Origin: Tenacibaculum adriaticum
Lineage (GTDB): Bacteria > Bacteroidota > Bacteroidia > Flavobacteriales > Flavobacteriaceae
NCBI RefSeq assembly: GCF_008124875.1
Contig: NZ_VNIA01000003.1
Span: 62,001-126,000 of the forward strand
Direction of reading: 5' to 3'
Length of the DNA stretch: 64,000 nucleotides
The translations under genes were made by a program, and so were the position numbers. Positions 19,712-20,713 of this stretch are shown piece after piece (the first letter of the stretch is position 1; each line of letters begins with the position of its first letter). Below the pieces are notes generated by a model. It had not been told where the DNA came from. It made no database searches and saw only the letters and a list, made by a program, of their open reading frames with translations.

Positions 19712-20251
19712 TTAGTTACAAACCTTGCAATTTTCCTTTTCCTGAATTTCACCAATGAGTTTTCCGTTTTCGTTAAGAGTGAATCCACAGCAGTTCATAA
19801 AACCTTCTGTTATAAGCTTTCGACCACGTTGTATTTGCGATTTTACAGTAGGTAAGGGCAGGTTTAGTTGTTTGGCAACTTGTTCTTGCTTTAATCCTTT
19901 AATATCTGATAAAAAAATAGGGGTACGGTATTTTTCGGGTAAATTTTGTAAAATACCACGCAAGCAATCTTTTTGAGTATGTGTATTTTCTAAAAGTTGA
20001 ATTTCATTTTTAAAATTAGTAATTTCAAAAGTTTGATTCGTTGTTTTGAAATAATCAAGAATAGAATTTCTTGCAATAGTAAACGCCCAAGGTTTTAATT
20101 TGGTAATATCTTTTAAAGTATGGAGTTTCATGTGTATTTTAATGAAAGATTCTTGCAAAATGTCATCAGCAATAGTGGTGTCTTTCACTTTGCTGATGAT
20201 AAATTGTTTTAGGTCTTTAGCATATTTTATCCAAACTTTCTGTGTAGTCAT
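19712..20251 (-). CDS. ECF sigma factor, SigZ-like, with C-terminal cysteines
   Basis: The protein has 179 residues. Region 2 includes ADDILQESFIKIHMKL and KPWAFTIARNSILDYFK; region 4 includes PEKYRTPIFLSDIKGLKQEQVAKQLNLPLPTVKSQIQRGRK, a clear helix-turn-helix. Beyond region 4 lies a 27-residue tail with four cysteines (CC at 154-155 and CxxC at 175-178), which is the SigZ pattern and suggests thiol or metal sensing in place of a membrane anti-sigma factor. No anti-sigma gene is adjacent. It starts 3 bp after the cysteine-rich peptide gene, so both are in one operon. Confidence 0.85.
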   Translation of the reverse strand: MTTQKVWIKYAKDLKQFIISKVKDTTIADDILQESFIKIHMKLHTLKDITKLKPWAFTIARNSILDYFKTTNQTFEITNFKNEIQLLENTHTQKDCLRGILQNLPEKYRTPIFLSDIKGLKQEQVAKQLNLPLPTVKSQIQRGRKLITEGFMNCCGFTLNENGKLIGEIQEKENCKVCN

Positions 20252-20254
20252 TGT

Positions 20255-20359
20255 TTAGCAATTACAGTTATTACAGGTGCAGTTTTCGCATGTACAATTG
20301 TTACAACTTCCTGTTTTACATCCTTCACAATTACAAGTACATTCATTTTTAAATTTCAT
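20255..20359 (-). CDS. Cysteine-rich metallothionein-like peptide, 34 residues
   Basis: This short gene reads ATG at 20359 to TAA at 20255. Eleven of 34 residues are cysteine, arranged mainly as CxC and CxxC: ECTCNCEGCKTG, then SCNNCTCENCTC, then NNCNC. Such spacing fits metal-thiolate binding. It lies 3 bp upstream of the sigma factor gene, whose own tail has CC and CxxC. A metal buffer or redox-active partner of the sigma factor is the simplest reading, but this is an inference. It is too short for most ORF callers. Confidence 0.75.
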   Translation of the reverse strand: MKFKNECTCNCEGCKTGSCNNCTCENCTCNNCNC

Positions 20360-20458
20360 TATATTACGTTTTATGGTTTATTAATTAGACGTAAATTATT
20401 TGAAAAAGATGCATAGAATAAATAATAATTTATGATAAAGTTTTACAGGCGAAAAACT

Positions 20459-20713
20459 TTATGATTCATTTTCAAGACGATTGCGTTTCATTTCAAATGC
20501 TTCTGTGGCTTGTTTAATAATATCTAATGTTCCGGAAGCTCTTTGCATTACTTTATCTAATTCTTTGTCTAAATCTTTAGATTGAATATCAAATAATTGA
20601 ACTTCAACTACCCCAATTTTTTGAATTAAACTTTTTTGAGAGTTTTTAATATCTTCCATTTTTACTAAAACGGAATTCATTATTTTAATTCTTTTTTGCG
20701 TTTTTTCATCCAT
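20459..20713 (-). CDS. Small coiled-coil protein of unknown function
   Basis: The protein has 84 residues from the ATG at 20713 (MDEKTQKRIKIMNSVLVKME); the longer frame from 20770 adds a hydrophobic unrelated stretch and is not preferred. The sequence is a long amphipathic helix rich in Lys, Glu, Ile and Leu with heptad spacing. There is no signal peptide, membrane segment or recognisable domain. It precedes the Cys-rich/sigma pair on the same strand with a 99-bp gap, so it may or may not share a transcript. The family is not recognised. Confidence 0.6.
   Translation of the reverse strand: MDEKTQKRIKIMNSVLVKMEDIKNSQKSLIQKIGVVEVQLFDIQSKDLDKELDKVMQRASGTLDIIKQATEAFEMKRNRLENES

Follow-up and report, generated by a model that had tools for sequence, protein, structure and literature searches.

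A SigZ-like ECF sigma factor and a metallothionein-like peptide as a probable autoregulated metal(loid)-defence pair in Tenacibaculum adriaticum

The closest described regulators are CorE and CorE2 of Myxococcus xanthus, members of the CorE-like ECF sigma factors (ECF238, former ECF44). In the parts of the sources consulted, CorE has no linked anti-sigma factor and its control by copper is set by C-terminal Cys residues (PMC3107203; PMC8999054). Its Cys-rich domain carries six Cys in 38 residues, four of which (positions 181, 184, 192, and 194) are invariant (PMC3107203), and a CXC motif in the linker is described for CorE-like sigma factors in a review (PMC8999054). The targets named in these excerpts are copper oxidase and ATPase genes, no metallothionein being among them (PMC3107203; PMC8999054). 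Bacterial metallothioneins, such as SmtA/BmtA and MymT of Mycobacterium tuberculosis, are very small proteins of which about one third is Cys, arranged in CxC and CxxC motifs; SmtA is controlled by SmtB. For MymT, the excerpt consulted names RicR, a CsoR-type regulator (PMC10141476). The pair presented here would join these two known kinds, a metallothionein and a CorE-like cysteine-sensing sigma factor, and neither this pair nor any other connection of a metallothionein-like peptide with a sigma factor of this kind was found in the literature searched for SigZ, for metallothionein, for sigma factors, and for arsenic, a set that leaves many subscription papers outside.

The locus lies in a window of 64 kb, the whole stretch of DNA that was analysed, and its features are collected in Table 1. 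The initial annotation described a 34-residue peptide with 11 Cys encoded 3 bp from a sigma factor gene whose product ends with CC and CxxC motifs; coordinates and translation agree with this description, and both motifs are present (C154-C155 and C175-x-x-C178). The absence of an anti-sigma factor was also borne out, none being recognised with NCBIfam and Pfam when three neighbours were scanned, namely an S9-type peptidase, an unassigned ORF of 103 aa, and a DoxX/MauE-like protein. We consider it likely that both genes constitute an autoregulated metal(loid)-defence operon, in which a self-sensing SigZ-like ECF sigma factor is combined with a metallothionein-like buffer peptide.

Table 1. Features of the peptide-sigma locus (positions in the window)
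Feature	Position	Strand	Basis
Gene of the 34-residue, 11-Cys metallothionein-like peptide	20255..20359	(-)	11 Cys unchanged across 29 homologues; signature of coding sequence
Gene of the SigZ-like ECF sigma factor, 179 aa	19712..20251	(-)	sigma2 and sigma4 above Pfam cut-offs
ECF-type promoter (predicted)	20386..20413	(-)	-35 TGCATC(TTTT), 20404-20413; -10 CGTCTA, 20386-20391
Cys96 codon in the sigma2-sigma4 linker, part of the proposed sensing site	19964..19966	(-)	invariant in 29/29; putative role
Cys-containing sigma tail after sigma4 (C154-C155, C175-x-x-C178), proposed sensing site	19712..19792	(-)	conservation; putative role

Judged by the way in which its sequence varies, the Cys-rich peptide is the product of a real, conserved gene. 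All 11 Cys are invariant in the 29 genes of the 11-Cys type compared, with TGT and TGC both used at 11/11 of these columns, and the CxC/CxxC spacing is fixed across the homologues. Pairwise differences at codon positions 1, 2, and 3 amount to 2379, 2559, and 5777, respectively, and the median dN/dS is about 0.16, a value obtained from 161/406 usable pairs with dS near saturation. The conserved Cys region covers nearly the entire ORF. The pattern used for detecting Cys-rich ORFs gave no second match in the window and none at 10 other ECF-like loci of the same genome, while in 391 kb of loci it gave 13 matches, every one beside a SigZ gene; this pattern is not exhaustive, since some peptides (such as that of locus L047) were missed.

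With respect to its nature, the peptide has the size and motifs of a metallothionein (34 aa, 11 Cys, CxC/CxxC, 11 invariant columns), as SmtA/BmtA and MymT do. A sequence match to a metallothionein family was not found: no Pfam family was hit at E up to 1, no NCBIfam family at 0.1, and no PDB chain at E up to 1 in a profile search with the peptide alignment, profile models this short and Cys-rich being insensitive. The peptide differs from the bacterial metallothioneins mentioned above in having an ECF sigma factor as its neighbouring regulator, and its metal binding is putative. Its candidacy as a zinc-binding anti-sigma (ZAS) factor was rejected. ZAS factors carry the motif HxxxCxxC, which is not found in the peptide, a molecule containing no His.

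The sigma factor combines sigma2 and sigma4 regions (PF04542, 39.7 bits, cut-off 24; PF08281, 54.2 bits, cut-off 25.7) in a short protein, as ECF sigma factors do. Its best NCBIfam models, which cover nearly its full length, are both SigZ models, and it is called SigZ-like because the scores stay below the curated cut-offs (TIGR02959, 152.2 vs. 168.65 bits; NF007215, 166.2 vs. 212 bits). In an alignment of 29 sigma factors, C154, C155, and C175 are invariant and C178 is at least 90% conserved, the tail arrangement being CC-x19-CxxC. The linker residue C96, absent from the initial annotation, is likewise invariant. This degree of conservation is what a sensing site would show. An AlphaFold model of the sigma factor (two sequences) reached a mean pLDDT of 66.2, with tail blocks at 42-56, and was therefore too poor to be used for Cys geometry.

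As far as CorE and CorE2 are described in the sources consulted, the sigma factor resembles them in that no anti-sigma factor was recognised among the neighbours scanned and in carrying Cys residues in both the C-terminal extension and the sigma2-sigma4 linker. However, it possesses CC-x19-CxxC and a single linker Cys instead of a six-Cys extension of 38 residues and a CXC linker. Both the arrangement of the Cys-rich domain and the linker motif thus depart from those given there for the CorE-like group, and the protein is therefore not a member of this family. By analogy with CorE, the SigZ-like sigma factor most likely uses its own cysteines for sensing a thiophilic metal(loid).

The sigma factor was matched at E<=1e-20 in 47 of the 199 genomes of the family. 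The loci first read were 30 from the family search and L032, the sole relative obtained from a sigma scan of genome contigs, and a Cys-rich ORF is present on the same strand, at most 330 bp upstream of the sigma gene, in all of them (31/31). Both genes are separated by 3 nt in two loci, the window and L024 (which is cut at a contig end), by 249 nt in L021, and by 40-130 nt in the other 28 loci, so that the 3-bp distance to which the initial annotation drew attention exists in the window but is not a conserved trait. A phylum-wide search with a sigma profile gave matches in 43/395 genomes. The resulting set of 89 sigma loci comprises 51/53 family matches (L022 and L024 were dropped), 37 new ones from the phylum-wide search, and L032. 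A Cys-rich peptide is encoded beside 49 of these 89 SigZ-like sigma factors, 48 of them detected by the pattern and that of L047 by eye: 28 are window-like 11-Cys peptides, 13 are longer and contain 12-14 Cys, and eight look different. The latter are located upstream of the sigma gene in L191, L193, and L198 and downstream of it in L043, L045, L047, L048, and L182, in these five cases behind a promoter copy of their own. The initial annotation had proposed a search for tiny Cys-rich ORFs upstream of sigZ in Bacteroidota, lack of conservation being the result that would count against the pair; both sets of loci point to a conserved unit. In L022 (genome G188), the sigma gene is broken by in-frame stops and the peptide ORF is likewise disrupted, while a promoter match remains, which fits a joint loss of function.

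Within the set of 89, the sigma factors with a linked peptide all possess the linker Cys (49; peptide without linker Cys, 0/89), 16 have the linker Cys without a detected peptide, and 24 have neither. In a tree built without these columns, no more than 3-4 changes of the two traits are seen, and the well-supported branches leave 1-2 independent pairs; the association is therefore suggestive, not significant. The linker Cys and the CC motif are also present in SigZ proteins of a Priestia and a Vibrio plasmid.

The strongest evidence comes from a promoter sequence that the initial annotation does not mention. The window promoter consists of TGCATCTTTT and CGTCTA with 12 nt between them, the ATG of the peptide gene following 26 nt further on. 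This layout of -35 and -10 elements is that of an ECF promoter. Both elements, or close variants, are found exactly 12 nt apart upstream of the peptide gene in 38/38 loci, and the distance from the -10 element to the ATG is 24-33 nt in 37 of them and 65 nt in the other. In the 38 loci the match score averages 16.3, vs. 11.5 for shuffled sequences (a single shuffle at each locus), and the minimum observed, 13.2, is the same as the maximum among the shuffles. When the 150-nt stretches preceding the 49 peptides were scanned with the pattern TGHRTCYTTTT-N-GTCT, a site was found in every case: 45 peptides have a 12-nt gap (35 sites without mismatch, nine with one, and one with two) and four an 11-nt gap (three without mismatch and one with one). 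In L043, L045, and L048 (sigma at 1501 onwards), the sigma gene and the downstream 8-Cys peptide gene each have their own 11-nt-gap promoter. As another minor observation, an inverted repeat detected by eye (AAAGTTTT / AAAACTTT; window positions 20437-20461) is located between the window promoter and the gene preceding it, of which it is probably the terminator.

The same sequence was used to delimit a possible regulon. Exact matches in the genome of origin are two, the window site and another at the locus of a SigZ paralogue; with one mismatch, 19 sites were counted vs. 23 for the reversed control, and no wider regulon is therefore claimed. The 199 family genomes contain 89 exact sites, of which 37 are within 1 kb of a SigZ match. 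The other 52 (14 in the 47 genomes with the sigma factor and 38 in the 152 without it) are not denser where the sigma factor is present, and no Cys-rich ORF was found near seven sites away from SigZ genes (L204-L210). Since the sites are concentrated beside SigZ genes and unenriched elsewhere, the regulon recognisable from exact sites, a count that weaker sites would escape, is the sigma factor's own neighbourhood. Taken together, the promoters of the peptide genes, the occurrence of the same class beside SigZ genes, and the lack of enrichment elsewhere suggest that the sigma factor most likely drives its own two-gene operon, the peptide being the effector.

The 11-Cys peptide profile matches 34/199 family genomes, and in seven of these (G052, G059, G062, G081, G088, G136, and G139), six of which are 66-90% complete and one (G059) 99%, there is no match to the sigma factor. 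In six of the seven the best upstream promoter score is at background level (9.6-11.2), and in the seventh, G088, the peptide has lost Cys residues. Its occurrence without the sigma gene indicates that the peptide does not need the sigma factor and is more than an element for controlling the sigma gene.

Other SigZ loci provide information about the kind of targets behind this promoter. When the 41 loci with either main peptide type are set apart from the 89, there remain 48, of which 28 show a 12-nt-gap site with at most one mismatch within 700 bp; no such site was found in the other 20, four of which have 11-nt-gap sites. Behind these sites, ArsI/CadI genes above the cut-off are found in L049, L051, L052, L053, and L188, and ArsM genes above the cut-off in L046, L059, and L054 (the same as L112), the sigma factors of all these loci being devoid of the linker Cys. 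L056, L057, and L058, outside the HMM-scanned set, resemble ArsI/ArsM-type loci on inspection. The window pair is thus similar to Bacteroidota SigZ sigma factors beside arsI/cadI or arsM, since a related sigma factor is accompanied by the same promoter class next to a presumed target. However, the HMM-checked relatives have no linker Cys, their target is an enzyme, and the promoter commonly follows the sigma gene. The genes behind the promoter are more diverse in other loci: an ArsE-like (thioredoxin-type) protein, below cut-off, in L192; a phosphatase-like protein, far below cut-off, in L189; a 78-aa ORF with an ArsP-type permease behind it in L113; and a PhzF isomerase in L060. PhzF is not a metal gene, and a metal role does not fit every relative. 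On plasmids, a SigZ-like sigma factor precedes a thioredoxin-family gene and a permease in Arenibacter, and arsC and an ACR3 pump are located within 3 kb of a SigZ-like sigma gene in Hymenobacter; no promoter match is reported at the four plasmid SigZ loci examined. The second exact site of the genome of origin belongs to L110 (G000:C3:200307-200877), outside the window. The SigZ-like paralogue encoded there has no linker Cys, and behind it come a nearly identical promoter and the gene of an ArsI/CadI-like VOC protein (115 bits, cut-off 116); cross-talk between both SigZ systems of the genome is conceivable.

In the operon proposed here, the SigZ-like sigma factor would work without an anti-sigma factor. 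Binding of a thiophilic metal or metalloid to its cysteines (C96 of the linker and the CC and CxxC motifs of the tail) would switch it on, and the active protein would drive essentially one promoter, TGCATCTTTT-N12-CGTCTA, located before the peptide gene and the gene of the sigma factor itself. The metallothionein-like peptide would then buffer the metal and remove the signal of the sigma factor, which constitutes a negative feedback. The initial annotation left open whether the peptide is a metal donor or a sink. The second role, as a regulated product of the sigma factor, is favoured over the first because the peptide gene has its own ECF-type promoter, because the peptide occurs without the sigma factor in 7/34 genomes having it, because five loci encode a Cys-rich peptide of another kind downstream of the sigma gene, behind its own promoter copy, and because the 3-bp spacing is not conserved. 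The main points against the operon include the 16/89 linker-Cys sigma factors without a detected peptide, along with an association of linker Cys and peptide that is not statistically independent in the tree; the SigZ proteins of the Priestia and Vibrio plasmid with linker Cys and CC, together with the four plasmid loci for which no promoter match is reported; the 20/48 other SigZ loci without a 12-nt-gap site at one mismatch or less; and, finally, targets such as PhzF in some relatives and the seven peptide genes without a sigma match.

The cysteines of the sigma factor could instead form disulfides upon peroxide, electrophile, or disulfide stress, the peptide being a thiol reservoir and not a metal buffer. 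Cys-only sites can sense redox, and the ArsE-like thioredoxin-type genes that follow the promoter in some relatives (L192, with a similar short ORF in L113) are in line with such a switch. However, the HMM-checked targets of related SigZ proteins are mostly arsenic or heavy-metal genes (ArsI/CadI, ArsM) and the fixed CxC/CxxC spacing is that expected for metal clusters, so we regard this explanation as unlikely, although it is the best of the alternatives.

Most relatives possess an additional element between both genes. In the 35 of the 41 main-type loci in which the peptide-sigma gap is 35-140 nt, all gaps (35/35) fold more stably than their dinucleotide shuffles (z below -2, mean -4.9), as compared with 17/64 ordinary same-strand gaps and 14/27 convergent gaps with z below -2. 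The stem sequences differ between loci; 21/36 stems begin 3-9 nt after the stop codon, and 14/36 are followed by at least five T in the next 8 nt. In the window no stem-loop is present between the peptide and sigma genes, the gap being 3 nt. The stem-loop may serve either as a leaky terminator or as a stabiliser favouring the peptide over the sigma factor and, in those relatives that have it, probably holds the sigma factor low relative to the peptide. The succession of a Cys-rich short ORF, a stem-loop, and the sigma gene in all testable relatives also recalls attenuation, the ORF being a leader peptide that senses cysteine supply, the hairpin setting the read-through into the sigma gene, and the product being inert. 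This is improbable, given that the window gap is too small for a stem-loop, that peptides occur without the sigma factor, that the Cys-rich ORF is downstream of the sigma gene in five loci, and that 29 genes share all 11 Cys at an unvarying spacing. At a marginally lower level of probability, the close and conserved linkage of the two genes might reflect a direct contact of their products, with the peptide acting as metal donor or as small inhibitor at the Cys site of the sigma factor; however, sigma lineages differ widely in the length, position, and Cys pattern of their linked peptides, and some peptides are found where the sigma factor is not. A sigma-controlled RiPP, a modified natural product whose precursor would be encoded by this very short ORF without family match, is very improbable, since nearly the whole ORF is conserved Cys region and a comparison of 21 loci showed no gene cluster, other than the sigma gene, common to more than nine of them, which leaves no dedicated modifying enzyme evident.

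If the two-gene metal(loid)-defence operon exists as proposed, it would add a new peptide family and a sigma factor with essentially one target, its readable promoter would predict metal(loid) regulons across a phylum, and the combination of a sensor sigma factor and a buffer peptide would be a minimal circuit for the study of metal feedback and for biosensors. The conserved pair suggests an unusual bacterial way to control a metal buffer. A wider and more tentative proposal, to which we give somewhat less than even chances, is that the SigZ-like sigma factors of Bacteroidota form a family in which a single protein senses thiophilic metal(loid)s, one promoter code is common to all, and the Cys set matches the neighbouring target: CC and tail Cys without linker Cys would go with arsenic genes, and the addition of the linker Cys with metallothionein-like peptides. 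The peptide would close a negative feedback on a single-operon sigma factor, and the intercistronic stem-loop would set the peptide-to-sigma ratio. A three-thiolate site formed by CC and a tail Cys would suit As(III).

Two further observations concern other SigZ loci. A third SigZ-like sigma factor of the genome of origin (L111; G000:C2:460402-460899) has the linker Cys and a single tail Cys and is encoded before a PhzF family gene, with no promoter match within 700 bp; similar tails are found in L177, L179, L181, and L183. Very short Ser/Lys-rich ORFs are located directly behind a SigZ-type promoter in two loci, L054:2120-2260 (46 aa) and L114:9575-9703 (42 aa).
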